Assembly (NCBI GenBank): GCA_022820805.1
Contig: JAJEEV010000041.1
Location: forward strand, 62,001-126,000
Reading direction: 5' to 3'
DNA from: Acidimicrobiia bacterium
Lineage (GTDB): Bacteria > Actinomycetota > Acidimicrobiia > Acidimicrobiales > Aldehydirespiratoraceae
DNA length: 64,000 nt
The notes beneath the pieces are model-generated. The model did no database searches. It worked only from the letters and a program-made list of their open reading frames with translations, and was not told the origin of the DNA. Each line of letters begins with the position of its first letter. Position 1 is the stretch's first letter. A program made the translations under genes and the position numbers. Below are positions 19,572-60,976 of the stretch, in pieces.

Positions 19572-19614
19572 GGCCCCAGGTGGTCCATCCGCCTGGTTCG
19601 GGGGCACCACCGCG

Positions 19615-41519: not shown

Positions 41520-41555
41520 GCCTTCCCCCAATTGGCTCGGATTGGGACGGTGGCA

Positions 41556-44571: not shown

Positions 44572-45813
44572 GTGAAGCGCGTACTCATCGCGTTGCTGGC
44601 TGTCGGCCTCGTGGCCGTCGCCGCTTGCAGCGGAGACACCGCAGAGGACGAGGGGCCGATCAAGTACGGCTTCCTCAACGGACAGTCCGGCGACTACGGC
44701 CCGTGGGGCCACTGGGCTCTGGCCGCAGCGGAAGTGGCGGTCGAGGAACTCAACGCCGGTGGCGGCGTGCTTGGCCGCCAGGTCGAGTTGGTAGTCGAGG
44801 ACAACGGATCCACGCCTGAGGGCGCGGTCTCGGGCTTCGCCGAGCTGACCGAGGTCGATGGAATCCACGCCCTCGGCGGCATCGAGTCCGACGGGATGAT
44901 CGCCATCTTCGACACCGTGCACGAGCTGCAGATACCGACCATCTGCAGCACCTGCGGCACGACCGAGCTTGACAACACCGGCGGTGACATGGTGTTCCGG
45001 ATCATCCCCTCCGACACCGACAACGGCATCGTCGGGGCCCAGGTGGCCCGCGACGAGGGATACCGCAACGTGGCCATGCTGGTCGAGCTGAGCGAGGGAA
45101 CCGAGAGTCCCGCCAACGTCTTCAAGGCCGTCTTCACCGAGCAGATGGGCGGGACCATCACCGAGGACGTCCGCTTCAACGCCGGTGAGACCACCTACGC
45201 GGCCCAGGTCGCCCAGGCTTTCGAGTCCAACCCCGACGCCGTCTATATCGCAGCCGGCTTCGAGACCGGCGTGCCGATCCTCAACGAGTGGCAGCGCCGG
45301 GGCTACACCGACATCCCGATGATCTTCACGACCGACCTGCTCAGCCCGGAGATCGCCGAGATCGTCAGCGGGGTCGAGGGAGCCTCGGCCATCGTCGGCG
45401 CCACCGCCTACGACACCGAGAACAACCCGGCCTGGGACGCCTACGTGCCTCGCTTCGAGGAGAAGATCGGCGATCCGCCCGAGATCGCGTTCTACGACGC
45501 CTGGCAGTACGACCAGTACATCATCCTGGGTCTGGCCACCGTGAAGGCCGGCACCACCGACGGTGCCGCCGTCGCCGCGGCCATCTCCGAGATCGCCAAC
45601 CCGCCCGGCGTGGAGGTCTTCAGCTACGCCCAGGGCCTGGCCGAACTCGAGGCCGGCAACGACATCGACTACCACGGCACCACCTCCAACCTGAACCTCA
45701 ACAGCGTGGGCAACCTGCTGTCGCCGGTGATGGCCGTCATCCACGTGGAGGACGGGGACTGGGCCGTGCGCGAGAACATCGAGCTCGACCCGACGCTGGT
45801 GAAGCCGTCCTGA
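44572..45813 (+). CDS. HAAT-family ABC transporter substrate-binding lipoprotein (LivK-like)
   Basis: A 413-aa periplasmic-binding-protein-type (type I fold) lipoprotein. The signal peptide VKRVLIALLAVGLVAVAAC has the lipobox Cys at C19. The mature part has IKYGFLNGQSGDYGPWGHWALAAAEVAVEELNAGGGVLGRQVELVVEDNGSTPEGAV, typical of branched-chain-amino-acid/urea/amide binding proteins. GTG 44572 follows GGAAGGAG by 8 nt. It is the first gene of the large catabolic locus and a hairpin follows it. In this context it may bind an amide-like or N-heterocyclic compound rather than leucine. Confidence 0.9.
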   Translation: MKRVLIALLAVGLVAVAACSGDTAEDEGPIKYGFLNGQSGDYGPWGHWALAAAEVAVEELNAGGGVLGRQVELVVEDNGSTPEGAVSGFAELTEVDGIHALGGIESDGMIAIFDTVHELQIPTICSTCGTTELDNTGGDMVFRIIPSDTDNGIVGAQVARDEGYRNVAMLVELSEGTESPANVFKAVFTEQMGGTITEDVRFNAGETTYAAQVAQAFESNPDAVYIAAGFETGVPILNEWQRRGYTDIPMIFTTDLLSPEIAEIVSGVEGASAIVGATAYDTENNPAWDAYVPRFEEKIGDPPEIAFYDAWQYDQYIILGLATVKAGTTDGAAVAAAISEIANPPGVEVFSYAQGLAELEAGNDIDYHGTTSNLNLNSVGNLLSPVMAVIHVEDGDWAVRENIELDPTLVKPS

Positions 45814-45834
45814 GCCCGACGCGAGCCTGACTTC

Positions 45835-45865
45835 GGCGACCGGCCCGGCCTCCGGGCCGGTCGCC
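45835..45865 (+). terminator. Strong 14-bp hairpin between binding protein and permease genes
   Basis: GGCGACCGGCCCGG, loop CCT, CCGGGCCGGTCGCC form a perfect stem 21 nt after the binding-protein stop, with no T-tract. It probably stabilises the 3' end of the binding-protein mRNA or attenuates read-through, giving more binding protein than permease. Confidence 0.65.
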
Positions 45866-45890
45866 CAGGTTCCCTCCCGGGGAGTCGCCC

Positions 45891-46760
45891 GTGCAAAACG
45901 TCGTCTTCGGGATCGTCACCGGCAGCATCCTGGCCGTGGCGACCCTCGGCTTCGCGCTGGTGCGCCAGACCGAGAACTTCCTCAATATCGCGCACGCCCA
46001 GATGATGGCGCTGGGCGCGTTCGTCGGGGTGGTGCTGGTGGACACCTACGGCATGAACATCTTCCTGGCCGGCGCCATAACGGTGGTAGGGCTCGGCGCC
46101 GTGGGTGTTGTGCTGTCGGCGGTCTTCTTCCAGCCGGTCCGCCACCAGGGCGGCACCGTGCTGCTGTTCACGTCCATCGGCCTGGCGCTGATGATGTACG
46201 CCGCGATACTGGCGCTGTTCGGGACCCAGGCCCGCTTCTACCCGGACGTCTCCGGCAGCCTCCACCGCTTCGCGGGCATCGGCATCGCCACCAACGAGTT
46301 GGTGATCATCGGATTGGCGGTCGGCAGCATCGCCGCGCTCCAGCTGTTCCTCAACTCCACCGGGCTGGGCCGGGCGATCCGGGCGGTGGCCAGCAACGAC
46401 GACCTGGCCCGGGTCAGGGGCGTGCCGGTGCGCACCGTCTCCAACACCATCTGGTTCATCAGCTCCGCGTTCGGCGCCATGGCCGGCGTGATGCTGGGCG
46501 TTCTGGGCGCCGTCAACACCGAGATCGGCTGGCACAACATCCTGATCGTGCTGGCTGCCGCGGTGCTGGGAGGGCTGCGCAGCATCACCGGTGTGATCCT
46601 GGCCGGGCTGCTGCTGGGGATCATGATGGACGTCTCCGCGCTGATCATCCCCACCGCCTACCGGCCGGTGGTGGCCTTCGGGGTGCTGGTGGCCGTGCTG
46701 ATCCTGCGGCCCGAGGGGATCCTGTCCATCCAGCGCCGCAAGGACGCGGTGGTCGCATGA
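45891..46760 (+). CDS. livH: HAAT-family ABC transporter permease (LivH-like)
   Basis: A 289-aa permease with about eight hydrophobic segments: VFGIVTGSILAVATLGFALVRQTENFLNIAHAQMMALGAFVGV is the conserved LivH start, and GLGRAIRAVASNDDLARVRGVPV is the cytoplasmic loop that contacts the ATPase. GTG 45891 follows GGGGAG. Second gene of the import operon; its substrate is set by the binding protein. Confidence 0.88.
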   Translation: MQNVVFGIVTGSILAVATLGFALVRQTENFLNIAHAQMMALGAFVGVVLVDTYGMNIFLAGAITVVGLGAVGVVLSAVFFQPVRHQGGTVLLFTSIGLALMMYAAILALFGTQARFYPDVSGSLHRFAGIGIATNELVIIGLAVGSIAALQLFLNSTGLGRAIRAVASNDDLARVRGVPVRTVSNTIWFISSAFGAMAGVMLGVLGAVNTEIGWHNILIVLAAAVLGGLRSITGVILAGLLLGIMMDVSALIIPTAYRPVVAFGVLVAVLILRPEGILSIQRRKDAVVA

Positions 46761-46791
46761 TCGCCGCGGTCATCTCCGGGACGGCAGCGCC

Positions 46792-47769
46792 ATGACCAAC
46801 CCGATCTTCTGGGTGGGCGTGCTGACGCTGGCCATGATCTACGCCAGCCTGGCCATGTCGCTCAACGTCGAGTCCGGCTGGGGCGGGATGTGGGACCTCG
46901 GCATCGCGGGGCTGCTGGCCGCGGGCAGCTACTGCTATGTGATCCTCACCGCGAGCGACCCGGATCTCGGCATGCGGTTCGCGCCGGGGTTGTCCATGTG
47001 GGTGGCCTGGCCGCTGTCGGCGCTGTTCACCGGGCTGGTGGCGTTCGCCATCGGCGCGCCCGCGCTCCGGTTGAGGCGCGAGTACTTCCTGATCACGACG
47101 CTGGCCTTCGCGGAGATCATCCGCCAGCTGGTGGTCATCCAGGCCGACCTCACCCGGGGCACCGTCGGCATAGCCAACATCAACCGCCCCTTCGACAGCT
47201 TCGTGACCGGACGCGACTACAACTACGTGCTGCTCGGCATCGCGGTCGTCACCGCCGCCGTCATGTACGTCGTCACCCGCCAGGTCGGGATCTCGCCTTT
47301 CGGCCGGACGCTGCGGGCCGCCCGCGACAATGAGGCCGTCGCCCTTGCGCTGGGCAAGCGGGTCAACCGGATGAGGATCAAGACCTTCGTGCTGACCGGA
47401 GTCCTCATCGGGGCGACCGCTCCCGTCTACCTGTTCTACATCAGGGCCATCTCACCGCAGCTGTTCGCTCCGGGCATCACCTTCACGGTGTGGACGGCGC
47501 TGGTCATCGGCGGCCTCGGCAGCATCAGGGGCGGCCTTGCCGGCGCCTTGGTGCTGATCGTGTTCACAGAGGCCGTGGGCCTGATCGAGGTCGACCCCGC
47601 CCATATCAACATCCTGGTCGCCATCGAGCCCTTCCTGGTGGGCCTGCTGCTGGTCCTCGTGCTTCGTTTCCGTCCGGACGGGCTTTTCTCGGAACGAAGT
47701 TCCTTCGGGGCGGCCAGGCGCTCGGCCGGGGACCCCGCCGGCGACGCGGCGCGGGTCGCGGGCGGATAG
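46792..47769 (+). CDS. livM: HAAT-family ABC transporter permease (LivM-like)
   Basis: A 325-aa permease with about nine hydrophobic segments. LNVESGWGGMWDLGIAGLLAAGSY and REYFLITTLAFAEIIRQLV are typical of LivM. GRTLRAARDNEAVALALGKRVNRMRIKTFVLTG is the ATPase-contact loop, and TVWTALVIGGLGSIRGGLAGALVL follows. It lies 31 bp after the LivH-like gene and 9 bp before the LivG-like gene. Confidence 0.88.
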   Translation: MTNPIFWVGVLTLAMIYASLAMSLNVESGWGGMWDLGIAGLLAAGSYCYVILTASDPDLGMRFAPGLSMWVAWPLSALFTGLVAFAIGAPALRLRREYFLITTLAFAEIIRQLVVIQADLTRGTVGIANINRPFDSFVTGRDYNYVLLGIAVVTAAVMYVVTRQVGISPFGRTLRAARDNEAVALALGKRVNRMRIKTFVLTGVLIGATAPVYLFYIRAISPQLFAPGITFTVWTALVIGGLGSIRGGLAGALVLIVFTEAVGLIEVDPAHINILVAIEPFLVGLLLVLVLRFRPDGLFSERSSFGAARRSAGDPAGDAARVAGG

Positions 47770-47778
47770 GGATCCGGC

Positions 47779-48552
47779 ATGGAGCTGGTGCTCGACACAG
47801 TCCGCAAGACCTTCGGCGGTGTCGTCGCGGTCGACGATGTGTCGGCGGTGATGCCCCAGGACAAGATCACTGCGCTGATCGGACCCAACGGCGCGGGCAA
47901 GACCACCCTGTTCAACGCCATCACCGGCTTCGATCCCCCGGACCGGGGCTCGATCAGCTTCGGCGACCGCCGCATCGACGGCCTGCCACCGTGGCGGGTG
48001 GCCGAACTGGGGCTCATCAGGACCTTCCAGACCCCGGTCGGCTTCACCACCCTCACCGTGCGCGAGAGCATGCTCGCCGCGGCCACTCCCCACTTCGCGG
48101 AGACGCCGGTCGGTGCTCTCGGCCTGAGTCGCCGGGCCCGGGACCACGAGCGGGCGTCAGCGGCCCGGGCCGAGGAGATCACGGCTGAGTTGGGCATGTC
48201 GGACCTGCTCGACGTCCGTACCGACGAGCTGTCCGCCGGCGACCGCAAGCTGCTCGAGTTCGCCCGCTCGCTGATGGCCGAGCCCAAGCTGCTCCTGCTC
48301 GACGAGCCGGCTGCCGCGGTCGCCCCGGCCAACATCGGACGGCTGTCCCAACTGGTTCGGCGACTCCGTGACGAGCGGGGGCTGGGCAGCCTGATAATCG
48401 ACCACAACCTCTCGTTCCTCATGCAGATCGCCGACGAGGTCCACGTACTCGACCGGGGCGCGCTGCTGGCTTCGGGACCGCCCGCCGAGATCGCCGCGGA
48501 CCCCGAGGTGATGCGGGTCTATCTCGGCGAGGAGACGGACGGCGACGGATGA
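47779..48552 (+). CDS. livG: HAAT-family ABC transporter ATP-binding protein (LivG-like)
   Basis: A 257-aa ATPase: GPNGAGKTTLFNAITGF (Walker A), LSAGDRKLLEFARSLMAEPKLLLLDEPAAAVAP (signature plus Walker B), and IDHNLSFLMQIADEVHVLDRG. The conserved GLIRTFQTPVGFTTLTVRESM segment marks it as LivG-like. The stop overlaps the start of the LivF-like gene by 4 nt. Confidence 0.9.
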   Translation: MELVLDTVRKTFGGVVAVDDVSAVMPQDKITALIGPNGAGKTTLFNAITGFDPPDRGSISFGDRRIDGLPPWRVAELGLIRTFQTPVGFTTLTVRESMLAAATPHFAETPVGALGLSRRARDHERASAARAEEITAELGMSDLLDVRTDELSAGDRKLLEFARSLMAEPKLLLLDEPAAAVAPANIGRLSQLVRRLRDERGLGSLIIDHNLSFLMQIADEVHVLDRGALLASGPPAEIAADPEVMRVYLGEETDGDG

Positions 48553-49283
48553 GCGAGCCCGTCCTGCGAGTCGAGGCCCTCGAGGCCGGGTACGGGGGCT
48601 TCCCGGTGCTGCACGGCGTCGACCTCGAAGTGGCCGCCGGTGAGATCGTCGCGGTCGTCGGGCCCAACGGCGCGGGCAAGTCCACGCTGCTGAAGACGAT
48701 CTTCCGCCTGCTGCCGGCCCAGGGCGGGTCCGTGAGTTTCGAGGGCAGAAACCTGCAGCGCCATCCGACGCACAGCCTGGCCGAGCTCGGCATGGGCTAC
48801 GTGCCCCAGGAGCACAACACCTTCCCCGACCTGAGCGTGCGCGACAACCTGTCGGTGGCGTTGCGGGGATCCAGCCCGGTGGAGATCCGCCGGCGGGTTG
48901 CCGAGGTGGCCGAGTCGTACCCGGCTCTGCGCGACCGGATGAGCCAGAACGCCAGCACACTGTCGGGCGGTGAGCGCCAGATGCTGGCCCTGGCCAGCGC
49001 CATGATCACCGGACCCCGCTTCCTGGCCCTCGACGAGCCCACCACCGGACTGGCGCCCTCCATCGTGCGGGAGCGCATCAACGACATCCTCCGCATCCGC
49101 GACTCGGGCACCACCCTCATGTGGGTGATCGAGGAGAGCCCGCTCATCTGCCTGCCCCACTGCGATCGGGTGTACGTGATGCAGGCCGGGGTGCTGGGCG
49201 CGCCGGTGTCGAGCCGGGAGGTCCTCGAGGACGCCGCGCTCCAGTCGCTCTTCTTCGGTGTCGACCACGCTGACGGCGGCTAG
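48549..49283 (+). CDS. livF: HAAT-family ABC transporter ATP-binding protein (LivF-like)
   Basis: A 244-aa ATPase: GPNGAGKSTLLKTIFRLL (Walker A), ELGMGYVPQEHNTFPDLSVRDNLSV (LivF-type Q-loop), LSGGERQMLALASAMITGPRFLALDEPTTGLAPSIV, and a H-loop position with Glu in WVIEESPLI. The usual His of the switch loop therefore seems to be Glu, an oddity. It completes the importer and is followed 58 bp later by the ring-opening amidohydrolase. Confidence 0.9.
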   Translation: MSEPVLRVEALEAGYGGFPVLHGVDLEVAAGEIVAVVGPNGAGKSTLLKTIFRLLPAQGGSVSFEGRNLQRHPTHSLAELGMGYVPQEHNTFPDLSVRDNLSVALRGSSPVEIRRRVAEVAESYPALRDRMSQNASTLSGGERQMLALASAMITGPRFLALDEPTTGLAPSIVRERINDILRIRDSGTTLMWVIEESPLICLPHCDRVYVMQAGVLGAPVSSREVLEDAALQSLFFGVDHADGG

Positions 49284-49341
49284 ACCGACTGTCGCCCGTG
49301 CGATCCCCCTCGAACGTAGACCACCCACAGGAGTGAGCTAG

Positions 49342-50448
49342 ATGCCCATCATCGTCCGCAAGATCCCCTTCGAGTTCGTTTCCGACACCGGCGGGCTGCT
49401 GGCCGAGATCGAGAACGGATCGTTCACCGCCGACCAGATAATCGGCGTGATCGGCAAGACGGAGGGCAACGGCGGGGTCAACGACTTCTCGCGGATCCTG
49501 GCCGACCGGGTGTTCCGCGACTTCCTCAACACCCACGGCACCCGCCCGACCTCGGAGATCGACAAGATGCCGATCGTTTGGTCGGGGGGCACCGACGGGG
49601 TCATCGCGCCCCACATGAACGTCTTCGCCCGGGTTCCCGATGACGGCAGCGCCACCGACGAGAAGCGGCTGGCAGTCGGTGTGAGCATGTCCGAGCCGAT
49701 CCTGCCCGAGGAGATCGGCCGGCTCCCGATGGTGGAAAAGGTAGCCGACGGCGTGCGGGCCGCCATGGCCGACGCGGGCATCAGCGATCCGGCCGATGTC
49801 CATTTCGTTCAGTCCAAGACCCCGCTGCTGACCCGCGAGCGCATCGAGGACGCCCGCAGCCGGGGCGAGACGGTAGTGATGACCGACACCATGGAGTCGA
49901 TGGCGGTGTCCAACGCCACTGCGGCCCTCGGCATCGGGTACGCCGTCGGGGAGTTCGACCTGCCCCGCGAGGACCAGATCGCCAGCGACCTCGACCTCTA
50001 CTCCGCGGTGGCATCCTGCTCCTCGGGCGTGGAACAGGATCCGGCCCAGATCGTGGTGGTCGGCAACAAGGCCGGCGCGGGCGGGGACTTCCGCATCGGC
50101 CACGCCGTCATGCGTGACGCCCTCGACTTCGACGGCATCTACGACGCCATCCGCTCGGCCGGCCTGGACCTTCCCGACCGGCCCCATCCCAGCGACCTCG
50201 GCGATGCGGTGGTCAACTGCTTCATCAAGTGCGAGACCGACCCCTCGGGTCGGCTCCGGGGCCGGCGGCTGGTGTCGATCAACGACTCCGACATCCACCA
50301 CACCCACCACACCAAGGGCGCGGTCGGGGCGGTCGCGGCCGCCGCCATCGGGGATCCGGCGGTGTACTGCTCGGTGGCGGCGCTCCAGCAGGGCCCCGCG
50401 GGCGGTGGCATGGTGGCCGCCATCGTCGACATGTCGAAGGCGCCCTGA
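49342..50448 (+). CDS. Ring-opening amidohydrolase (cyanuric acid hydrolase/barbiturase family)
   Basis: A 368-aa protein of the rare AtzD/TrzD/barbiturase family, which opens cyclic imides by amide hydrolysis. It consists of three similar repeats, each giving a Lys and a Ser to the active site: K39 (GKTEGNGGVNDFSR) with S81 (WSGGTDG), K159 (VQSKTPLLT) with S227 or S228 (ASCSSG), and K296 (KCETD) with S344 (VYCSVAALQQGPAGGG). The three symmetric substrate-binding arginines of cyanuric acid hydrolases are only partly kept: R51 is present, but the other two positions read N191 and H322/K325. The substrate is therefore probably not cyanuric acid. GGAGTGAGCTAG before ATG contains the ribosome binding site. 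Confidence 0.9.
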   Translation: MPIIVRKIPFEFVSDTGGLLAEIENGSFTADQIIGVIGKTEGNGGVNDFSRILADRVFRDFLNTHGTRPTSEIDKMPIVWSGGTDGVIAPHMNVFARVPDDGSATDEKRLAVGVSMSEPILPEEIGRLPMVEKVADGVRAAMADAGISDPADVHFVQSKTPLLTRERIEDARSRGETVVMTDTMESMAVSNATAALGIGYAVGEFDLPREDQIASDLDLYSAVASCSSGVEQDPAQIVVVGNKAGAGGDFRIGHAVMRDALDFDGIYDAIRSAGLDLPDRPHPSDLGDAVVNCFIKCETDPSGRLRGRRLVSINDSDIHHTHHTKGAVGAVAAAAIGDPAVYCSVAALQQGPAGGGMVAAIVDMSKAP

Positions 50449-50485
50449 TCTTGAGGTAGACCTCCAATACAGCAGGAGAACTCCG

Positions 50486-51487
50486 ATGCTCGACCAGGCA
50501 CAGCAGCTCGACCAGGCCCTGCGGCACTACTGGCACCCGGTGGCGGTCTCCGAGGAGGTCACGGCCGAGCCCCTGCAGGTGAAGCTGCTGGGCGAGACGA
50601 TCGTGCTGTACCGCGACTCGGAGGGACTGGTGGCGCTGCGCGACAAGTGCGTGCACCGGGGGGTGGCCCTGTCGGGCGGGTGCATCCGCGACGGGCTGTT
50701 GATGTGCCCCTACCACGGATGGCAGTACGACCGCACCGGGAAAGTGGCGTTCATCCCGGCGCTGGGAACCGGCGGGGCCATACCGAGCCAGGCCCGGGTC
50801 GACCGCTACAACGTGCGCGAGGACCATGGCGCGGTCTGGATCGCGCCTGCCGGACCGGTCGCCGATCTGCCTCCCTGGCCCGACGACGACTGGAGCAGCG
50901 ACGACTGGCACGTGTTCCTGGTGGGCACGTGGCGCTGGCAGTCGTCCGCAGGACGGATGCTGGAGAACGCCATCGACTTCGCCCACTTCAACTTCGTGCA
51001 CGAGGGCTTCACCGAGCTGGCCGACGGGGCGTTCATCAAGCCCTTCGAGGTAGAGGTGACCGGCGACGGCATGAGGTACGCCTACGACGACAGCGTGCTG
51101 TTGCGCGACTACACGCTGCACCTGCCGTTCACGCTGCACGACCGCAAGTCGGTGGTGGCCGTCAGCGGCGGGGTTACCTGGTCCGAGCAGGGCGAGTCGA
51201 AGGCCGGCGACATCACCACCATCACCTTCATCGCCTCGCCCACCGACCGGGCCGAGACGCGCATCTTCTCGTGGTTGTCGCGCAACCACTCCTTCGACAC
51301 CTCCGACGCCGACTTCGGGGCCGGGTTCCACGAGGTGATGGAGCAGGACCGCATCGTGGTCGAGGCCCAGGATCCGGCCGAGTTGCCCCTGGACCCTCGC
51401 GAGGAGCTGCACCTCAAGCTGGCCGACTCCGGGTCGATCGTCTACCGCAAGCTCCTGCGAGAACTCTCTACCGCCGGACCCGCGTGA
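50486..51487 (+). CDS. Rieske non-heme iron oxygenase (VanA/PaO-like)
   Basis: A 333-aa oxygenase. Rieske ligands are C55-V-H57 and C74-P-Y-H77; the iron site is NAIDFAHFNFVH, with D164, H167 and H172. It is a paralogue of the 40551 gene. ATG 50486 follows AGGAG. It lies between the ring-opening amidohydrolase and the molybdenum hydroxylase, and its stop overlaps the latter's first gene by 4 nt, so it probably acts on the same substrate, by hydroxylation or N- or O-demethylation. Confidence 0.92.
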   Translation: MLDQAQQLDQALRHYWHPVAVSEEVTAEPLQVKLLGETIVLYRDSEGLVALRDKCVHRGVALSGGCIRDGLLMCPYHGWQYDRTGKVAFIPALGTGGAIPSQARVDRYNVREDHGAVWIAPAGPVADLPPWPDDDWSSDDWHVFLVGTWRWQSSAGRMLENAIDFAHFNFVHEGFTELADGAFIKPFEVEVTGDGMRYAYDDSVLLRDYTLHLPFTLHDRKSVVAVSGGVTWSEQGESKAGDITTITFIASPTDRAETRIFSWLSRNHSFDTSDADFGAGFHEVMEQDRIVVEAQDPAELPLDPREELHLKLADSGSIVYRKLLRELSTAGPA

Positions 51488-52859: not shown

Positions 52860-55150
52860 GCGGGCCCCGCAGCCGGCTCATCGGCAGCCCGGAGCCCCGG
52901 CGCAAGAACCGCGAGCTGCTAAGAGGCGAGGGCACCTACGTGGCCGACATCCGCCTTGAGGGCCAGCTGCACGCGAGGGTGGTGCGCAGCCCGGCGGCCC
53001 ACGGCCGGCTGCTGGGCGTCGACACCTCCGAAGCTCTGGGGATCCCCGGTGTGGTGGCCGCCCTCACCGCCGCCGACATCGACGACATCAGGATCCCGAT
53101 CCGGCTCCCGTTCGCGGAGTCGCCCGAGGCGAACAGGGTGCTGCAGGCGCCGCTGGCCACCGACGTGGTCCGTTACGTCGGTGAACCGGTCGCGGTCGTG
53201 GTGGCCGACGATCCCTATGCAGCCGAGGACGCGGCCGAGCACGTCCTGGTGGACATCGACGAGCTGGAGCCGGTCCTCGACCTCGCAGCCTCGTCCGAGT
53301 CCTCGCAACCCCTGGTGCACGAGCACTTCGGGAGCAACACCGTCAACCGGCTGGCCTACCGGTACGGGGACGCCGCCGCAGTGTTCGAGCAGGCGGACGT
53401 GGTGGTTCACCGGCGGCTGAGGGTCCATCGCCTCGCGGCGGCGCCGATGGAGACCCGCGGGCTGGTCGCCGACTTCGACCCCGCGTCGGGCGTGCTCACC
53501 GTGTGGGGCGGCGCCAAGGTCAAGCACTTCACCCGGGGCCTGCTCAGCACGGTGCTGGGACTGGAACCCACCGACGTCCGTGTGATCGAGGTGGAGGTCG
53601 GGGGCGGATTCGGGACCCGGGGCGAGCCCTACCCCGAGGACATCCTCGTGGCGCTGCTCGCGCAGCGACTCCAGCGGCCCGTGCAGTGGATTGAGGACCG
53701 CTGGGAGCACATGGTCGCCACCAACCATGCCCGCGAGCAGGAGCACGACATCGAGATGGCCGCCGACCGCGACGGACGGCTGCTGGGCTTCCGGGTGCGG
53801 GGCTGGTGCGATCACGGCGCCTATGTCCGCACCCAGGGGCTGCTGCCGGCGGTGCTGCCCATGTTCCACCTGCCGGGCCCCTACCAGTGGCAGGCGTTCA
53901 GCATGGACCTCGACGCGGTGCTGACCAACCGGACCCCGGTCGGGACCTACCGCGGCCCGGGCATGACCGAGGCGACCTTCATCCGCGAGCGCATGGTCGA
54001 CCTCGTGGCCGCCGAGCTGCAAATGGACCCGGTCCAGCTGCGGCGCCGGAACCTGATCGCGGAGGAGTCGATGCCGTTCACCTTCATGCCGGGCCCCGGC
54101 TCGGGGGCCGTGATGCCGATCATGTACCAGGGCGGCGACTTCCCCGCAGCGTTCGACGAGCTGCTCGACGCGGCCGGCTACGACCAGCTCCGCGACTGGA
54201 GGCGCGAGGCTCGATCCGGTGGCCGCCATGCCGGCGTCGGCGTCTCGGCCTACATCGAGTTCGCCGCGGTCGGCCCCTTCGAGGACGTCGACATCGTCGG
54301 CGACGACCAGGGGGTCGTCATCAAGGCCGCGGTCGGATCGCTGGGCCAGGGGATCGAGACCGCGCTGGCCCAGATAGCGGCCGAGCTTCTCGACGTGCCG
54401 CTCGACGACGTGGCCGTCGAGTTCCATGACACGGCCGAGCTGCCGCAGGGCTTCGGGGCCTTCGCCAGCCGCTCCACCGTCCTGGCCGGCAACGCCATCG
54501 CGGCCGCCGTCGACGAGATGAGGGCCAAGGCTGCACACCTGCTCGGATGCGCCCCCGGCGAGGTGGAGTTCCGTGGTGGCGTCGCCACCGGCGGAGACCG
54601 CGGCTCGGTGCGGCTCGCCGAGATCGGCCCCACCCGGGGCCGCTTCGAGAAGGAGGGGCTGACCGCGTCCTTCGGCGGGGCGGTGTGCTCAGTGTCGGTG
54701 GACCCCGCCGACGGCCGGGTCCGGGTGCACCGCTTCGCGCTGGCCCACGACGTGGGTCGAGCCGTCAATCCCCGGCTCCTGCGGGGCCAGCTCGCCGGCG
54801 CCGCGGCCCAGGGCATCGGCGGAGCGCTCTTCGAGGAGCTCGCCTTCGACGGGAACGGGCAGCCGCTGTCGGTGACCCTCGCGGACTACATGATGCCCAC
54901 CGCGGCCGAACTACCCGACGTGGAGGTGGCCATCATCGAGCACGGCAGCGGATCCAACCCGCTGGGCATCAAGGGCGGTGGCGAGGCCGGGATGGTGGGC
55001 TCCTTCGGGGCGGTCGCCAACGGTGTGGCCGATGCCGTCGGCGAGGGCGCCGAGGTTCTCAGCAGCTCCGTGAGTCCGGCTCGAATCTGGCATGCCCTGA
55101 ATGACCCCAGCGAGCCCGCCGGGACCGGTAAGCCAGCACAGGAGGCATAG
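52856..55150 (+). CDS. Molybdenum hydroxylase large (molybdopterin) subunit
   Basis: A 764-aa catalytic subunit. It has LLRGEGTYVADI (N-terminal), VGGGFGTRGEPYPEDILVALLA (dithiolene-side loop) and GTYRGPGMTEATFIRERMVD near residue 364. IKGGGEAGMVGSFGAVANGVADA near 707 carries the catalytic glutamate. The active-site loop reads TYRGPG, not the AYxCSFR of true CO dehydrogenases, so it is a substrate hydroxylase. It probably hydroxylates a carbon next to ring nitrogen, which would suit imide formation ahead of the amidohydrolase. Confidence 0.92.
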   Translation: MSGPRSRLIGSPEPRRKNRELLRGEGTYVADIRLEGQLHARVVRSPAAHGRLLGVDTSEALGIPGVVAALTAADIDDIRIPIRLPFAESPEANRVLQAPLATDVVRYVGEPVAVVVADDPYAAEDAAEHVLVDIDELEPVLDLAASSESSQPLVHEHFGSNTVNRLAYRYGDAAAVFEQADVVVHRRLRVHRLAAAPMETRGLVADFDPASGVLTVWGGAKVKHFTRGLLSTVLGLEPTDVRVIEVEVGGGFGTRGEPYPEDILVALLAQRLQRPVQWIEDRWEHMVATNHAREQEHDIEMAADRDGRLLGFRVRGWCDHGAYVRTQGLLPAVLPMFHLPGPYQWQAFSMDLDAVLTNRTPVGTYRGPGMTEATFIRERMVDLVAAELQMDPVQLRRRNLIAEESMPFTFMPGPGSGAVMPIMYQGGDFPAAFDELLDAAGYDQLRDWRREARSGGRHAGVGVSAYIEFAAVGPFEDVDIVGDDQGVVIKAAVGSLGQGIETALAQIAAELLDVPLDDVAVEFHDTAELPQGFGAFASRSTVLAGNAIAAAVDEMRAKAAHLLGCAPGEVEFRGGVATGGDRGSVRLAEIGPTRGRFEKEGLTASFGGAVCSVSVDPADGRVRVHRFALAHDVGRAVNPRLLRGQLAGAAAQGIGGALFEELAFDGNGQPLSVTLADYMMPTAAELPDVEVAIIEHGSGSNPLGIKGGGEAGMVGSFGAVANGVADAVGEGAEVLSSSVSPARIWHALNDPSEPAGTGKPAQEA

Positions 55151-55153
55151 CCC

Positions 55154-56104
55154 ATGATCATCGACAGCCACGTGCACCTGTTCCCGGCGCAATGGCAGCC
55201 GAAGGGTCACATGCCGCCCGACCTCTTCGACGTGTCACGGCAGCTCGAGCGCATGGAGCAGGGAGGGATCACCACCTCGATCGTCTCCGACCCGCACATC
55301 TGGTACGGGGACCTCGACACCGCGGACATCGAGCAGGTCCGCACCTACAACGACTTCGTCGCCGACCTTCAACGCGACCATCCGGGAACCCTGGCCGGGC
55401 TGGCCACGGCGGTCCCCTGGCGCGGCGACGAGCACCTCGCCGAGGCCCGGCGAGCAGTTGAGGAGCTCGGGCTGTCCGGCTTCGCAATGCCCACCAGCGA
55501 CCAGAACCGGTACCTCGACAGCGTGCCGGCCGGGTTCTGGGACCACGTGACGGGCGTCGGGGCGCCGATCTTCGTGCACCCGGGCGGCCAGACCGTCGGC
55601 CAGGACCTCATGGGCATCTACCGCATGGGCGAGGTCTGCGGGCGCCCGCTGGACATGACGGTCACCCTCGCCCGGTTCATCCTCACCGGCACCTACGAGC
55701 GGTTCCCGCAACTGGAGCTGCTCTGCGCTCACGCCGGCGGCGCCATCACCACCATCGCCGACCGGCTCGACTTCGGGCACGAGCTGCGCGACTACGCCCC
55801 CCTCGGGCCGTGGGGAGAGGTGGAGCTGGCCGAGCCGCCGTCGAGCCATGTCACCAAGCTCTTCCTCGACACGGTCACCTTCGGGAGCCGGACGCTGAGG
55901 ATGGCGGTGCAGACCGTGGGCTCCGAACACGTCTGCTTCGGCACCGACTGCCCGCCGGTGCCGTGGACCGTCGAGAGGCACCTCGCCGTCGTGGACGAGC
56001 TGGGCCTGAGCGACGACCAGCGCGCCGACGTTCTGGGACGCAACGCCGAGCGACTCTTCCTCACCCACACAGCCGAGCCCGCAGGGGGAGGCCACCATGC
56101 CTGA
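55154..56104 (+). CDS. Amidohydrolase 2 / ACMSD-like TIM-barrel metal enzyme
   Basis: A 316-aa member of the ACMSD/gamma-resorcylate decarboxylase group. MIIDSHVHLF gives H6 and H8; further ligands are expected in FVHPGGQ and LLCAHAGGAI, and the Asp in CFGTDCPP. Such enzymes decarboxylate or hydrolyse ring-derived acids using Zn or Mn. It lies 3 bp after the molybdenum hydroxylase and overlaps the DapA-family gene by 8 nt. Confidence 0.88.
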   Translation: MIIDSHVHLFPAQWQPKGHMPPDLFDVSRQLERMEQGGITTSIVSDPHIWYGDLDTADIEQVRTYNDFVADLQRDHPGTLAGLATAVPWRGDEHLAEARRAVEELGLSGFAMPTSDQNRYLDSVPAGFWDHVTGVGAPIFVHPGGQTVGQDLMGIYRMGEVCGRPLDMTVTLARFILTGTYERFPQLELLCAHAGGAITTIADRLDFGHELRDYAPLGPWGEVELAEPPSSHVTKLFLDTVTFGSRTLRMAVQTVGSEHVCFGTDCPPVPWTVERHLAVVDELGLSDDQRADVLGRNAERLFLTHTAEPAGGGHHA

Positions 56105-57116
56105 GTACACCCCGACCGACGCCCGGGAATGGGCGCTGGAGAACCTCGAAGGATGCTGCGGCTGCGTGCTGCCCACATTCACCGGCGACCTGTCGACGCT
56201 GAACGAGGCCGCCATACGCCACGACGTCGACATGGAGCGCGAGCTCGGCATGCGCGCCGTCCTGGTGGTGAGCGAGGGGGGCACCACCCTCGCGGAGTAC
56301 CGCCGGATGCTGGAGATCGTCATCGACGCGGCCGGCGACCTCATGGTGGTCGTCCAGGCGTCGCAGCCGACCTGGGACCTGCAGCAGCTCACCATCGAGT
56401 GGGGCGCTGAGCTGGGGGCCGACCTGGTGCTGCCGTCCTACCCGTTGACGTTCTACCCGCGTGACCTCGACGAGCTCTACGAGGCCAGCAAGGCGATGAT
56501 CGACCGCTCGCCTCTGGGCGTGCTGCTGTTCGCCATCGACCAGTGGAACTTCGCCCGCCTGCACCCGGCCGCGTTCCCGGTGCAGCTGCTGGAGAGGCTC
56601 GTGGCCGGCTGCGGGATGCTGGTCGGGGTCAAAAACGAGATCGGCCTGCCGTACACGGGAGGCATGGACGATGTCTTCCGGCTCCTGGGCGACCAGATCG
56701 TGGTGACCGATCCGATGGAGTCGAACGCGCCCATCTGGATCCGGCACTACGGCATGAAGTACATGGGGACGTCGAACTACGAGGCCTTCGGACCCCGCAT
56801 CCCGCAGATGCTCGAGCTGCTCGGCGACCCCGAGACCTGGGATGCGGGAATGGAGCTGTACTGGCGGAACACGCCTGTCCGCAAGGCCAACAGCGCCACC
56901 GTGAGCCCGGTCGTGGCCAGCACCGGGATGGTGCCCCGGAGCATCTGGAAGTACCAGGGCTGGCTCAACGGCTTCAACGGGGGGCCGCTGCGGGCCCCGC
57001 TGGCCCGCATCAACGCGGCCCAGATGGGCATCATCCGCAAGGGCGCCGTCGATGCCGGCCTCGATGTCACCGACGACGGTGACGACGTGTTCTGGGTGGG
57101 CAGGAACCCGGCGTGA
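56097..57116 (+). CDS. DapA/DHDPS-family lyase
   Basis: A 339-aa TIM-barrel protein. The Schiff-base lysine is K179 in VGVKNEIG, and the usual GTTGE motif is altered to SEGGTT (59-64). Tyr in LPSYPLTFY may act as the proton relay. Family members perform aldol cleavage or condensation of pyruvate-like keto acids, or dehydratase reactions. It may release a keto acid from the opened ring. The stop overlaps the next gene's GTG by 4 nt. Confidence 0.85.
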   Translation: MPEYTPTDAREWALENLEGCCGCVLPTFTGDLSTLNEAAIRHDVDMERELGMRAVLVVSEGGTTLAEYRRMLEIVIDAAGDLMVVVQASQPTWDLQQLTIEWGAELGADLVLPSYPLTFYPRDLDELYEASKAMIDRSPLGVLLFAIDQWNFARLHPAAFPVQLLERLVAGCGMLVGVKNEIGLPYTGGMDDVFRLLGDQIVVTDPMESNAPIWIRHYGMKYMGTSNYEAFGPRIPQMLELLGDPETWDAGMELYWRNTPVRKANSATVSPVVASTGMVPRSIWKYQGWLNGFNGGPLRAPLARINAAQMGIIRKGAVDAGLDVTDDGDDVFWVGRNPA

Positions 57117-58120
57117 CGGCACTCGGGGACCGGCCGCTGTTCCTGGACGGCGACCTCGTCGACGCGCTCGCCTCGGTGGAGGTAGGGCTGGACGCGGCCC
57201 GGGTCTCCGCGGGCGCCGAGGCCGTCACGGGACGGGTGCAGATCGCCGATGACCGGATCTGGATGCGGGTGCTGGCCGGCATCGTGCCCGAGCTCGGCAT
57301 AGTCGGCTACAAGGAGTTCCACCGCGTCGGGCAGCGGGTGCGGTACCACGTGAGCATCTTCGACCGCGACACCGCCGACATGATCGGCGTCGTCGACGGC
57401 CGGCGCATCACCAGCCTCCGCACCGCTTCCACCGCCGCGCTGGCGTTCGAGCATGTCGACGACGGACAACCCAAGAGGCTGGCCGTCATAGGCAGCGGCG
57501 AGGAGGCCAAGGAGGGCCTGCGGGCGGTGGCTGCGGTGTCGACGCTGGCCGAGGTGGCGGTGTTCAGCCCCACGCCGGCCAACCGGGAGGCGTTCTGCGC
57601 CCTGCTCGGCCCGGTGGCGGGGGTGCCCGTACATCCGGTGGCCTCCGTCGACGCTGCGCTGGCCGGCGCCCAGCAGGCGTACGTGGCGACGTCGTCGGCC
57701 GGCCCGGCGTTCCTCGACGCTCGCCAGGTAGCGCATCTCGACATGCTGGCCGGGATCGGATCGACGCGGCCCAACCAGCGCGAGCTGATCGGCGACGTGT
57801 TCACCGAGGCCTCCCAGGTGGTGTTCGACTGCGCCGACGCCCGCCACGAGCCGGGCGACGTGATCGAGGCGGTCGAGCGGTTCGGGTTCGACCCCGACGG
57901 GGCCCTGCTGTTGAAGGACTGGCTGGAGTCACCGTACGAGCGGACCGGCGGGGGCCCGCTGGTGTTCAAGTCCATCGGCACTGTCGAGCAGGACCTGGCC
58001 CTCGCCCACCGGCTGCTGATCGCCGCCCACGAGCAGGGACTGGGCATCCCGGCACCCGAGATCGGCTCGCTGCGCATCATGCGGGACCCAGAGGCCGAGC
58101 GGGCGGGACAACGGGACTAA
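57113..58120 (+). CDS. Ornithine cyclodeaminase / mu-crystallin family protein
   Basis: A 335-aa NAD-binding protein. It has GYKEFHRVG with the likely substrate-carboxylate Lys, MIGVVDGRRITSLRTASTAALA, the Rossmann motif VIGSGEEAKEGLRAVAAVSTL, and TSSAGPAFL. The family includes ornithine cyclodeaminase, ketimine reductases and alanine dehydrogenases. In this operon it may reduce an imine or deaminate an amino acid arising from ring opening. It starts GTG, overlapping the DapA-family gene. Confidence 0.86.
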   Translation: MTALGDRPLFLDGDLVDALASVEVGLDAARVSAGAEAVTGRVQIADDRIWMRVLAGIVPELGIVGYKEFHRVGQRVRYHVSIFDRDTADMIGVVDGRRITSLRTASTAALAFEHVDDGQPKRLAVIGSGEEAKEGLRAVAAVSTLAEVAVFSPTPANREAFCALLGPVAGVPVHPVASVDAALAGAQQAYVATSSAGPAFLDARQVAHLDMLAGIGSTRPNQRELIGDVFTEASQVVFDCADARHEPGDVIEAVERFGFDPDGALLLKDWLESPYERTGGGPLVFKSIGTVEQDLALAHRLLIAAHEQGLGIPAPEIGSLRIMRDPEAERAGQRD

Positions 58121-58146
58121 GTTCCTGAGATGAGGGGGACAGCGTC

Positions 58147-59484
58147 ATGGCACTGATTGACACCGACGGCCGGTTCCGGGTCAGCCGTCGCATCTACCAC
58201 GACCCCGAGATCCATCGCCGTGAGCTGGACTCGATCTTCAAGAAGTCATGGTTCTTCGTGGGGCACGCCTCGGAGATTCCCGAGCCCGGCGACTACGTGA
58301 CCAGGCCGCTGGGCGCCGACCCGGTGATCGTGAACCGGGACCGCGACGGCAGCGTCCACGTGATGCTGAACTCCTGCTCGCACCGCGGCGTGATGCTCTG
58401 CCGTGCCGAACGGGGCCGCACCAAGGCCCACCGCTGCTCCTATCACGGCTGGGCCTACGGTCTCGACGGCGCGTGCCGGGCCGTGACCTACGAGAAGGAG
58501 GTGTACGGCCCGGACCTCGACAAGTCGCGCTTCGACCTTCGCTCGGCCCGGGTCGAGGTCCTGCACGGGCTGATATTCGCCACCTGGGACCACCGGGGAC
58601 CGTCGCTGGCCGAGGCCCTGGGCCACATGACCTACTACTTCGACGCGCTGTTCGGGAAGTTCGACAACGGGTTCGAGGTGATGGGCTCACCGGTGCGGAC
58701 CCGCATCTCCGCCAACTGGAAGGCCGAGACCGAGAACCTGTCCGGCGACGGCTACCACACCATGATCACCCACGAGACCGCCCTGCGGTTCGGGCTGTTC
58801 CCCAGCCCCGAGGACGTGGCCCCCTACGGCGATCCCATCGGCTCGAAGTTCCCCGGCCGGACGGTGCAGTGCGGCAACGGCCATACCATCCGGATCCAGC
58901 ACCTGCCCATCGAGACCCACCCGCCGGGCTTCCTCGGGTACCCGGAGCACCTCTGGCCCGAGATAGAGCGCAACCTCAAGCCGGGCCAGGTCGACATCAT
59001 GGCCCGCACGTCGGTCACCCACGGCAGCGTGTTCCCCAACCTCTCGTTCCTCGAGAACTTCAAGACCGCCACCGACGGGCCCGGCTCTATGTGCCGCTAC
59101 ACCCGGCTCACCCTCAAGGTCCCCGTCGACGAGGGCTCGACCGAGATCTGGTGGTGGCATCTCGTGCCGGCCGACGCCTCCGAGCACTGGAAGGAACGCT
59201 CGCAGCGGGCCTATCTCAGGACCAACGGCCCCGGCGGGATGTTCGAGCTCGACGACAACGAGAACTTCCTCGGCATGGCCGCGGCCAACAGCGGACCGGT
59301 CGGGCTCGACCAGCACTACGACTATGTGGCCGGCACCCACCATCCCGACGCCCATGGCCTGGAATGGCCCGGCCATGTGCAGGACGCCGACCGCAGCGAG
59401 CACACCCTGCGGGGCTTCCTCACCGAGTGGCGCCGCCGCATGGAGTTGACCGCAGTCTCCGAGCCGGCCGGGTCCGGCCGATGA
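58147..59484 (+). CDS. Rieske ring-hydroxylating dioxygenase alpha subunit
   Basis: A 445-aa oxygenase. Rieske ligands are C77-S-H79 and C97-S-Y-H100. The iron centre is in AETENLSGDGYHTMITHE, with bridging D201 and ligands H204 and H209. The sequence and length fit naphthalene/biphenyl-dioxygenase-type alpha subunits. ATG 58147 follows GAGGGGGA. The stop overlaps the beta-subunit start by 4 nt. No ferredoxin or reductase is encoded nearby. Confidence 0.92.
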   Translation: MALIDTDGRFRVSRRIYHDPEIHRRELDSIFKKSWFFVGHASEIPEPGDYVTRPLGADPVIVNRDRDGSVHVMLNSCSHRGVMLCRAERGRTKAHRCSYHGWAYGLDGACRAVTYEKEVYGPDLDKSRFDLRSARVEVLHGLIFATWDHRGPSLAEALGHMTYYFDALFGKFDNGFEVMGSPVRTRISANWKAETENLSGDGYHTMITHETALRFGLFPSPEDVAPYGDPIGSKFPGRTVQCGNGHTIRIQHLPIETHPPGFLGYPEHLWPEIERNLKPGQVDIMARTSVTHGSVFPNLSFLENFKTATDGPGSMCRYTRLTLKVPVDEGSTEIWWWHLVPADASEHWKERSQRAYLRTNGPGGMFELDDNENFLGMAAANSGPVGLDQHYDYVAGTHHPDAHGLEWPGHVQDADRSEHTLRGFLTEWRRRMELTAVSEPAGSGR

Positions 59485-60035
59485 CGAGGCTTCGCTGGGT
59501 CCACCCGACAACCACCGGGGACCCGGCACCGCTGCAGGTCCATCACGAGTTGGGCCTCTTCTACGCCTACGAGGCCGAGCTGCTCGACGAGTGGCGCCTC
59601 GACGAGTGGCTCCACCTCACCGACGAGGGCTTCACCTACCTCGTCCCGGTGCCGCTGGTGACCGACCAGCACCCGCAGCTCGGCTACGACCCGTCCGCCC
59701 TGTTCATGGACGAGACCCGTGACTCGATCGCAGAGAACTGGGTGGCCCGGCTGACCGACGAGAACATCGCGGTGTCGTGGGCTGATCGGCCTCCGGTGCG
59801 CACCCGCAGGTTCCTGTCGGCGCTGCGGGTCAGGTCCACGGACCACCCCCAGGAGTACCTGGCCCGAATGAACGTGCAGGCGTCGATGGCCCGGCACGGC
59901 ACCCAGCCCGGCGAGATGATCGGCGAGCGATTCGACGTCGTCCGTCGGTCCGGAGACTCGTTCCGCCTAGTGTCGCGGTTCGTGGTCCTGCTGAGCGCGA
60001 TAGTGGACGCGCCCCGCCCCCGGACCATCCTTTGA
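59481..60035 (+). CDS. Ring-hydroxylating dioxygenase beta subunit
   Basis: A 184-aa SnoaL-fold small subunit. HHELGLFYAYEAELLDEWRLDEWLHLTDEGFTYLVPV is typical, as are the later RTRRFLSALRVRSTDHPQEYLARMNV and ERFDVVRRSGDSFRLVSRFVVLLS. It overlaps the alpha subunit by ATGA and is probably its stable partner. Confidence 0.9.
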   Translation: MTRLRWVHPTTTGDPAPLQVHHELGLFYAYEAELLDEWRLDEWLHLTDEGFTYLVPVPLVTDQHPQLGYDPSALFMDETRDSIAENWVARLTDENIAVSWADRPPVRTRRFLSALRVRSTDHPQEYLARMNVQASMARHGTQPGEMIGERFDVVRRSGDSFRLVSRFVVLLSAIVDAPRPRTIL

Positions 60036-60052
60036 ACGGCAGAGGAGGAGCT

Positions 60053-60976
60053 ATGAGCATGAGACTGCGCAGGATCGACTTCGGGGTGCGCGACGTCGAG
60101 GCCCAGGCACACTTCCTGCGCGAGGCGTTCGCCCTGGTGCAGGAGGAGGACGGAGCCGGCGGCGCCCGGTTCTCCGCGCCGGGGTCGGTCGAGCCCGCGG
60201 TCGCGACTCTGCGGCCGGCCCCCGTCGACCGGGTCGATGCGGTGGCGTTCGCGGTCGAGAGCCCCGATCAGGTCGATCGGATGCACGCTCACCTCGCGGA
60301 CCTCGACGCCGGCGTGGTCGGCGGTCCCGGCCCGACCCCCGAGGGCGGGTACGGCTTCGAGTTGTTCGACCCGGAGGGCCATCTCCTGTCCATTGCGGCC
60401 GGCACGCCGACGCGGACCCCGCCGGGCCCCCGGCGGGGAAACGGCGTGCCCATGGACCTGAGTCACGTCGTGTTCAACAGCGGTGACATCGACGGGCTCT
60501 CGCGGTGGTACTGCGCCGCGCTCGGCTTCCGTATCACCGACTGGCTGGAGGACAAGCTCGTGTTCATGACCACCAGCCGCTACCACCATCAGATCGCGCT
60601 GGCCGCGAGCTCGGATCCGGGCCTGAACCATGTCGCCTTCGAGTGCGCCGACATCGACGACTTCATGCGGGCCACCGGCCGGACCATGCGGATGGGCCAC
60701 GAGGTGCTGTGGGGACCGGGCCGGCACGGTCCCGGCGACAACGCTTTCGCCTACTTCCGCTCGCCCGCCGGCTTCATCTGTGAGTTCACGACCGAACTCA
60801 AGGTCGTCGACAGCCCGGACTGGGTCGCGAGCACATGGCAGTCGGTGCCCGAGCAGTCGGACCTGTGGGGAACGTCGAACCCCCGGCCCAACGACGCCTT
60901 CAGGGGCGTGCCGGACCCGGGCCTGGGAATCCTCCCCGGCAGCCCCGAGGAACTCGAACTCCTGGTAGCCCGCTGA
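60053..60976 (+). CDS. Two-domain VOC extradiol-type dioxygenase
   Basis: A 307-aa protein with two VOC modules joined by a Pro/Arg-rich linker (118-132). The C-terminal domain has the H-H-E iron site: H138 in MDLSHVVF, H193 in LNHVAFEC, E244 in FICEFTTEL, plus the GPGRHGPGDNAFAYFRSPAG signature of biphenyldiol/catechol 2,3-dioxygenases. The N-terminal domain lacks the first His (RIDFGV) and looks non-catalytic, as in classical type I extradiol enzymes. ATG 60053 follows GAGGAGG. It probably cleaves the diol made by the Rieske dioxygenase. Confidence 0.85.
   Translation: MSMRLRRIDFGVRDVEAQAHFLREAFALVQEEDGAGGARFSAPGSVEPAVATLRPAPVDRVDAVAFAVESPDQVDRMHAHLADLDAGVVGGPGPTPEGGYGFELFDPEGHLLSIAAGTPTRTPPGPRRGNGVPMDLSHVVFNSGDIDGLSRWYCAALGFRITDWLEDKLVFMTTSRYHHQIALAASSDPGLNHVAFECADIDDFMRATGRTMRMGHEVLWGPGRHGPGDNAFAYFRSPAGFICEFTTELKVVDSPDWVASTWQSVPEQSDLWGTSNPRPNDAFRGVPDPGLGILPGSPEELELLVAR

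Follow-up and report, generated by a model that had tools for sequence, protein, structure and literature searches.

A gene island in an Acidimicrobiia genus that resembles an import and breakdown set for a nitrogen-containing ring compound

In the barbiturase and cyanuric acid hydrolase (AtzD) family of ring-opening amidohydrolases (PF09663), roles of the Ser-Lys dyad residues, Arg52 and Glu230 are described in the available part of PMC4051656, which gives the position of Arg188 of cyanuric acid hydrolase (CAH; Azorhizobium numbering) as Arg save in two subgroups, with Lys in one and Gln in the barbiturases. Hydrolysis of a pyrimidine ring also belongs to lumichrome degradation in Nocardioides simplex (the Lum pathway; PMC12746152 and, in its accessible portion, the commentary PMC12752717), where the accessible text of PMC12746152 lists a molybdenum hydroxylase (Mo-hydroxylase), a Rieske dioxygenase, an extradiol enzyme and a cupin, and names no family for LumH. 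We analyzed a stretch of 64,000 nucleotides from an Acidimicrobiia bacterium (the window; positions 62,001 to 126,000 of contig JAJEEV010000041.1, assembly GCA_022820805.1), in which a gene run at 44572-60976 and its flanks, about 20 neighbouring genes, look like an import and breakdown set for a nitrogen-containing ring compound. The locus has in common with the Lum pathway a Mo-hydroxylase, a Rieske alpha/beta pair, an extradiol enzyme and, by prediction, pyrimidine-ring hydrolysis, and is a new combination of known enzyme families. A literature search of titles and abstract openings, mostly of papers outside subscription, yielded no described pathway with this enzyme set, in agreement with the original prediction made from the DNA.

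The gene run, its order and its enzyme families are confirmed as real. It holds 16 plus-strand genes rather than the fourteen first reported, and the many overlaps of 1-8 nt claimed for it occur at 8 of 15 junctions, in sizes of 4 or 8 nt only, the other junctions being gaps of 3 to 77 nt. The enzyme classes that had been named, including the Mo-hydroxylase and the Rieske/extradiol branch, were all recognized by Pfam or NCBIfam except the DapA-like lyase, whose family was borne out by a profile match to dihydrodipicolinate synthase (DHDPS) and a structure model. The start of the first Rieske protein was corrected to 50486. The island extends past the run, with minus-strand oxygenase genes upstream and Mo-hydroxylase genes downstream (Table 1); the second Mo-hydroxylase set runs on beyond the window with another Mo subunit (L054:3-2399, MoCoBD) and, by homology, a putative FAD subunit (L054:2116-2976). 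Among the scanned genes between 38777 and 63745 none was recognized as a transcription regulator. A chromosomal setting is suggested by the DNA gyrase/topoisomerase genes at 17337-22161 of the same window.

The order of the 15 genes from LivH to the extradiol dioxygenase, together with the minus-strand Mo genes, is identical in three other Acidimicrobiia contigs from metagenome-assembled genomes (MAGs; L110, L112 and L114), which argues that the arrangement is more than chance, and two short contigs (L111, L113) hold parts of the island in the same sub-order. Protein identities across the island genes are 71-98% in the three long contigs and 72-93% in the short ones. Pairwise ratios of nonsynonymous to synonymous substitution rates (dN/dS) against L110, L112, L114 and the congener G605 were 0.04-0.36 for all genes with a counterpart; the solute-binding protein was compared with G605 only, since the three long loci start inside LivH (L110 and L130 are loci from one genome). 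Single stops in the ACMSD of L112 and the OCD of L110 and L114 lie within eight residues of the end of the alignment and appear to be the true gene ends. The upstream minus-strand stretch is kept in the congener G619 and partly in G605; three other congeners, G324, G380 and G388, had no AtzD match. These observations of genes, order and conservation support 44572-60976 as one conserved catabolic island within its genus.

The AtzD-family protein is the sole PF09663 match in the host genome, and the match covers its whole length (residues 5-363). Its identity is 45.7% to Moorella cyanuric acid hydrolase and higher to the solved barbiturase 5hwe (Table 1). Three Ser-Lys dyads are retained (K39/S81, K159/S227, K296/S344), as are R51 and E231, the equivalents of family Arg52 and Glu230. 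The CAH Arg188 position is occupied by Asn191; Asn also stands there in 5hwe and in a relative at 38% identity (L057), and Arg in 6bum, L142 and L143. Asn191 thus fits the non-Arg class and differs from the Gln given for barbiturases in the available part of PMC4051656. The C-terminal loop reads QQGPAGGGM in the window protein and HQGPEGGGP in 5hwe. In a FastTree phylogeny the protein lies in a clade of 6 sequences from 5 genomes (support 1.0), which joins eight relatives at 70-73% identity to form a clade of 14 (support 1.0); compared with the known enzymes, the protein is in a distinct clade with relatives of two other families. As drawn, with no support value for the joining node, the clade of 14 sits among barbiturase-operon sequences beside L132 and L050. 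Where the original prediction had spoken of a cyanuric acid hydrolase/barbiturase-family enzyme, the identity, the dyads and the Asn at the Arg188 position support a predicted barbiturase type. Cyanuric acid as the substrate is disfavoured by that Asn and by the grouping of the protein with barbiturases.

In a plasmid search with the AtzD protein (132 records), 28 of the 30 matches listed were at 47.5% identity, and two, from Embleya and Nonomuraea, at 61-62%. Six of the eight sister relatives (L133, L134, L135, L136, L144, L145) adjoin a 437-residue RidA/YjgF protein, which gave three matched stretches when scanned in L134; such units have been proposed as the building blocks of AtzD too (PMC3758960, available part). 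Elsewhere in the class, 26 loci (L033-L052, L058, L059, L132, L139-L141) carry barbiturase relatives 58-66% identical to the window protein. With queries taken from L036:9416-18035 (L036 being counted) and several contigs cut at their ends, the oxamate-carbamoyltransferase-like genes FdrA, AllH and AllG were found in 24, 23 and 21 of the 26, respectively; 14 of the 26 had a close-knit xanthine-dehydrogenase set (Mo subunit at 70% or above) that differs from the set in the window. This suggests that these operons oxidize uracil and then phosphorolyze ureidomalonate to carbamoyl phosphate and malonamate. The window AtzD differs in that neither AllH, FdrA nor AllG was recognized among the scanned neighbours of 49342-50448. 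The only AllG match in the host genome (G000:C23:145723-146364; 40% to the AllG of G605) lies on a contig other than that of AtzD and might serve ureidomalonate processing.

The Rieske oxygenase next to AtzD has as its closest solved relative NdmA, a methylxanthine N1-demethylase (6icp), with SxtT scoring nearly as high (131.6 bits), and carries the motifs CxH..CxxH (residues 55-77) and D..H....H (residues 164-172). This likeness suggests that it may act as an N-demethylase of an N-heterocycle, a step absent from the original prediction. In contrast to the NdmA/NdmB systems, no reductase gene was recognized adjoining it, and its score to NdmA is just ~136 bits. For the Mo subunit, the nearest solved structures were 6-hydroxypseudooxynicotine dehydrogenase, CoxL and quinoline 2-oxidoreductase, in that order, and for the alpha subunit of the ring-hydroxylating dioxygenase (RieskeA) naphthalene dioxygenase 2b1x; its Rieske and mononuclear iron motifs and the beta subunit (RieskeB) are all present. 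His145, His200 and Glu251 of the extradiol enzyme (numbered from TTG 60032) are candidate ligands by motif alone, without structural alignment. The metal ligands of ACMSD are HxH, His and Asp, and the ACMSD-like protein shows HVH at 6-8 and FGTD at 262-265, again by motif alone, without structural alignment. Its nearest matches were ACMSD and 5-carboxyvanillate decarboxylase (Table 1), with uracil-5-carboxylate decarboxylase lower.

The DapA-like protein (56097-57116) gave neither a Pfam match nor a single-sequence PDB match. A pattern-based genome scan with it gave at least 20 loci. A profile of 19 relatives matched dihydrodipicolinate synthases, at best with 58 bits; the structure model (pLDDT 90.5) is a DapA-type barrel. 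Foldseek with this model placed PhdJ (6dan/6daq), a hydratase-aldolase of polycyclic aromatic degradation, at ranks 3, 10, 16, 21, 22 and 39, amid many DHDPS and NAL entries. The protein resembles the PhdJ/NahE hydratase-aldolases in its fold, in the Schiff-base Lys179 (invariant in 19/19 sequences), in a full-length match to PhdJ and in its Rieske and extradiol neighbours; it differs in its identity to PhdJ of 14-16%, in equally good matches to DHDPS structures, in a Phe for Tyr and in its pairing with OCD. On balance it may work like a hydratase-aldolase, short of an assignment to that class.

Table 1 Genes of the island and its flanks, with the evidence for each assignment; percentages are protein identities in loci of related genomes unless a protein is named
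Feature	Position	Strand	Evidence
HAAT solute-binding protein (importer)	44572..45813	+	Peripla_BP_6, 151.6 bits; 94% in L130
LivH-type permease	45891..46760	+	BPD_transp_2; 96-98% in L110, L112, L114
LivM-type permease	46792..47769	+	Named by position and conservation, no Pfam scan; 91-93% in L110, L112, L114
LivG-type ATPase	47779..48552	+	Named by position and conservation, no Pfam scan; 92-94% in L110, L112, L114
LivF-type ATPase	48549..49283	+	Named by position and conservation, no Pfam scan; 4-nt overlap with LivG; 90-93% in L110, L112, L114
Barbiturase-type AtzD-family ring-opening amidohydrolase (predicted)	49342..50448	+	PF09663, 442 bits; 58.7% to barbiturase 5hwe; tree
Single-component Rieske oxygenase, NdmA-like	50486..51487	+	PF00355, VanA_C; NdmA 6icp, 135.7 bits; Rieske and D..H....H motifs
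Mo-hydroxylase [2Fe-2S] subunit	51484..51999	+	Fer2/Fer2_2 (C-terminal portion of a longer scanned open reading frame); 4-nt overlaps
Mo-hydroxylase FAD subunit	51996..52859	+	FAD_binding_5, CO_deh_flav_C
Mo-hydroxylase Mo-cofactor subunit	52856..55150	+	MoCoBD_1/2; nearest solved structures
ACMSD-like amidohydrolase/decarboxylase	55154..56104	+	Amidohydro_2, 86 bits; ACMSD 65.9 bits, 5-carboxyvanillate decarboxylase 65.1 bits
DapA-fold lyase, hydratase-aldolase-like	56097..57116	+	Profile match to DHDPS; model pLDDT 90.5; Foldseek DHDPS and PhdJ; Lys179
OCD/mu-crystallin family protein (ketimine reductase-like)	57113..58120	+	PF02423, 65 bits
Ring-hydroxylating dioxygenase alpha (RieskeA), naphthalene-dioxygenase-like	58147..59484	+	2b1x, 281 bits; motifs
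Ring-hydroxylating dioxygenase beta (RieskeB)	59481..60035	+	PF00866, 77 bits
Type I extradiol dioxygenase	60032..60976	+	Glyoxalase PF00903; catechol 2,3-dioxygenase models below cut-off; candidate His, His, Glu motifs
Second Mo-hydroxylase Mo subunit	60978..63335	-	MoCoBD; 89% in L110, L112, L114
Second Mo-hydroxylase [2Fe-2S] subunit	63266..63745	-	Fer2_2; 87-92% in L110, L112, L114
Second VanA/NdmA-type Rieske oxygenase	40551..41531	-	Rieske and VanA_C; 37% to the 50486 protein
Second ring-hydroxylating dioxygenase alpha	39250..40509	-	Rieske domain; motifs; start picked at ATG 40509
Second ring-hydroxylating dioxygenase beta	38777..39250	-	SnoaL_4 and Ring_hydroxyl_B
Luciferase-like, F420-type oxidoreductase	41616..42602	-	Family match
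Cupin	42658..43056	-	Cupin_2, 24 bits, under the family cut-off of 27.2; 95% in L146

We tentatively propose, with rather less than even confidence, that two older modules were joined in one Acidimicrobiia genus into this island, which would degrade an N-methylated benzo-fused pyrimidine-type ring and end in the opening of barbiturate; the genes with their order and conservation, the families and the conserved catalytic motifs are observed, and we infer the substrate, the order of steps and every reaction. Module 1 (importer, barbiturase-derived AtzD, NdmA-like Rieske and probably the Mo-hydroxylase) would handle the pyrimidine-type ring, and module 2 (naphthalene-dioxygenase-like pair, extradiol enzyme, DapA-fold lyase, OCD protein and ACMSD-like enzyme) the aromatic ring. 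After uptake of the N-methylated, benzo-fused compound by the importer, the N-methyl group would be removed oxidatively and Mo-dependent hydroxylation would give a dione; the benzo ring would be dihydroxylated and undergo extradiol cleavage, and the hydratase-aldolase would free pyruvate, leaving a pyrimidine aldehyde. A Mo-hydroxylase would oxidize this aldehyde to an acid, the ACMSD-like enzyme would decarboxylate the acid to a barbiturate, and AtzD would open the barbiturate ring, giving ureidomalonate. For the OCD protein, reduction of an imine is suggested, without a place in this order of steps. Counted in favour of the proposal were the conserved gene order, the low dN/dS values, the barbiturase-type active site and tree position, and the likenesses to NdmA, to the 6-hydroxypseudooxynicotine and quinoline enzymes, to naphthalene dioxygenase and to PhdJ. 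So was the presence, near module 2 in other genomes, of a VanA-type Rieske protein (39%, L115) or of a Mo subunit (29-31% to that of the window, L119 and L124). It is unlikely, in our estimate, that a naphthalene-style route takes a quinazolinedione-like, possibly N-methylated compound through a formyl-hydroxypyrimidine to barbiturate, for opening by a repurposed barbiturase. We know of no natural barbiturase role outside uracil and thymine oxidation, and such a route, if true, would to our knowledge be the first.

Several observations weigh against the fused-ring proposal. Phe145 of the DapA-like protein, invariant in 19/19 sequences, takes the place of the catalytic Tyr of DHDPS; in an hhalign comparison with the DHDPS encoded by the host it pairs with the catalytic Tyr133 (probability 90.9), and the replacement makes the usual retro-aldol chemistry uncertain. 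The OCD protein has no clear role in the pathway. The island has no recognized gene for a dihydrodiol dehydrogenase, a ferredoxin or a ferredoxin reductase; proteins with PF14759 (Reductase_C) occur in the host genome on contigs C7, C10 and C48 only, and one of their genes adjoins an open reading frame judged by eye to be Rieske-ferredoxin-like. The congener G605 (L131) keeps the importer, AtzD and NdmA-like Rieske genes intact, with matches to the upstream Rieske/dioxygenase genes, in a shrunken copy of the island: its Mo gene is broken, no FeS or FAD subunit was found between that gene and the Rieske gene, the part of the run from ACMSD to extradiol is absent from its 20-kb locus, and a genome-wide search of G605 gave no DapA-like gene. 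In a draw of 395 genomes of the class (E of 1e-40 or better), AtzD had 27 matches and the DapA-like protein 8, with both in the host alone and ~0.5 shared genomes expected by chance; at E of 0.001, G347 also had weak or partial matches to both. The draw gives no co-occurrence beyond the host and, with too few genomes to tell, is uninformative.

The original prediction had read the locus as a single import-to-degradation pathway and had named neighbourhood comparison beforehand as the test that could refute it. Within the genus the genes proved linked; in the loci compared elsewhere, AtzD and module 2 were not seen next to each other. We compared the surroundings of 37 loci out of 59 other AtzD places (fragments included), in loci of at most 20 kb, several cut at contig ends, with a threshold of E of 1e-10 or better. 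DapA, OCD, RieskeA, RieskeB and extradiol genes were found in none of the 37; a weak ACMSD match appeared in L137 (31%) and a Rieske match in L134 (37%). Conversely, none of 15 DapA loci outside Acidimicrobiia had AtzD, and all 15 had an OCD relative (27-54%). RieskeA and RieskeB occur together in eight of these (L115-L121, L124), seven of which also carry an extradiol relative; the exception, L115, stops ~100 nt past OCD. Of the eight, 5/8 hold a cyclase-family hydrolase, 2/8 a polysaccharide-deacetylase with an amidase and 4/8 an aldehyde dehydrogenase, which favours the fused-ring proposal in that it fits an aldehyde product and a leftover hetero-ring that a lineage-specific hydrolase would open. 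When 10 of the genomes with DapA outside Acidimicrobiia were tested, four proved to hold a barbiturase-type AtzD (58-63%) elsewhere in the genome, and all four are among the eight with the Rieske pair. Within the class, none of eight further DapA loci (L081-L088, 38-41%) had AtzD; OCD adjoins DapA in 7/8, and L088 ends at DapA. Neighbours in L081-L087, read by eye, are peptidase- and peptide-transporter-like, which raised the idea that the DapA/OCD pair might have a role of the hydroxyproline type.

This separation makes it a serious possibility, short of a probable one and given the same confidence as the fused-ring proposal, that two pathways lie side by side, module 1 acting on (N-methylated) pyrimidines via barbiturate and module 2 on an unrelated bicyclic or N-containing aromatic compound. 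The G605 locus, with its front genes and Mo remnant and no DapA, speaks for this, as does the 88-98% identity of the front genes against 71-84% for the FeS, FAD, Mo, RieskeB and extradiol proteins; RieskeA (89-95%) and DapA (87-90%), however, match some front genes in conservation, and the Mo remnant may reflect decay rather than independence. The run is moreover continuous, with an 8-nt overlap at the ACMSD/DapA junction and an identical order in three long contigs, and module-type genomes elsewhere also hold AtzD. The reading of all genes as serving one substrate is thus partly supported, and the claim itself is unproven.

Two described pathways offer further explanations. It is distinctly improbable that the locus simply oxidizes uracil or thymine in the ordinary way, its other genes being passengers: its AtzD is barbiturase-like and adjoins a Mo-hydroxylase, but the FdrA, AllH and AllG genes and the other xanthine-dehydrogenase set typical of class barbiturase loci are not beside it, G605 has a separate AtzD of the barbiturase-operon type (L132), and the genome of L112 has a second AtzD at 63%. 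Very unlikely, in spite of the enzymes shared with the Lum pathway, is a variant of lumichrome/flavin degradation in which AtzD opens the pyrimidine ring. The Pfam-scanned genes of the window (a few open reading frames being unscanned) include no thiamin-dependent decarboxylase pair (LumKL), and the only P450 seen (30962-32176, 404 residues) has a P450 domain alone, unlike the multidomain enzyme of that pathway. LumJ is one 140-kDa protein in the accessible text of PMC12746152, against three subunits here, and DapA, OCD, ACMSD-like and NdmA-like genes are not listed in that text. Apart from the island, a 400-residue coding-looking open reading frame at 24000-25202 of the window (minus strand) matched no family in Pfam or NCBIfam at a threshold E of 0.001.

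The module 2 loci with an extradiol gene (L116-L121, L124) come from a Nanopelagicales MAG, Streptomyces atratus, Embleya scabrispora, Rhodococcus jostii, R. koreensis and two other MAGs, and the literature search found no description of their Rieske/extradiol/DapA/OCD module. In the named strains and others the RieskeA, RieskeB, DapA, OCD and extradiol proteins are homologous to those of the window (31-57%); these loci differ in having a cyclase-family hydrolase or an amidase with a polysaccharide-deacetylase, often an aldehyde dehydrogenase, and no AtzD nearby. Older enzymology, in which an oxygenase attacks the benzo ring and extradiol cleavage takes place beside the ring fusion, offers kynurenate as a lead for what the module in Rhodococcus and Streptomyces degrades; we do not claim it, as the literature search gave no bacterial genes for it by title. 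Such catabolic genes also lie on MAG contigs whose titles name Bifidobacterium breve and Klebsiella pneumoniae (L117, L129), labels that look wrong unless the bins are mixed. The occurrence of the module in named Rhodococcus, Streptomyces and Embleya strains opens its substrate to growth and knock-out tests. If the fused-ring proposal is right, fused N-heterocycle breakdown would gain a gene set open to testing, the degradation of aromatic rings would be linked to a rare family of hydrolases, and the island would show a way in which N-methylated alkaloid-like compounds may be recycled by uncultured actinobacteria.

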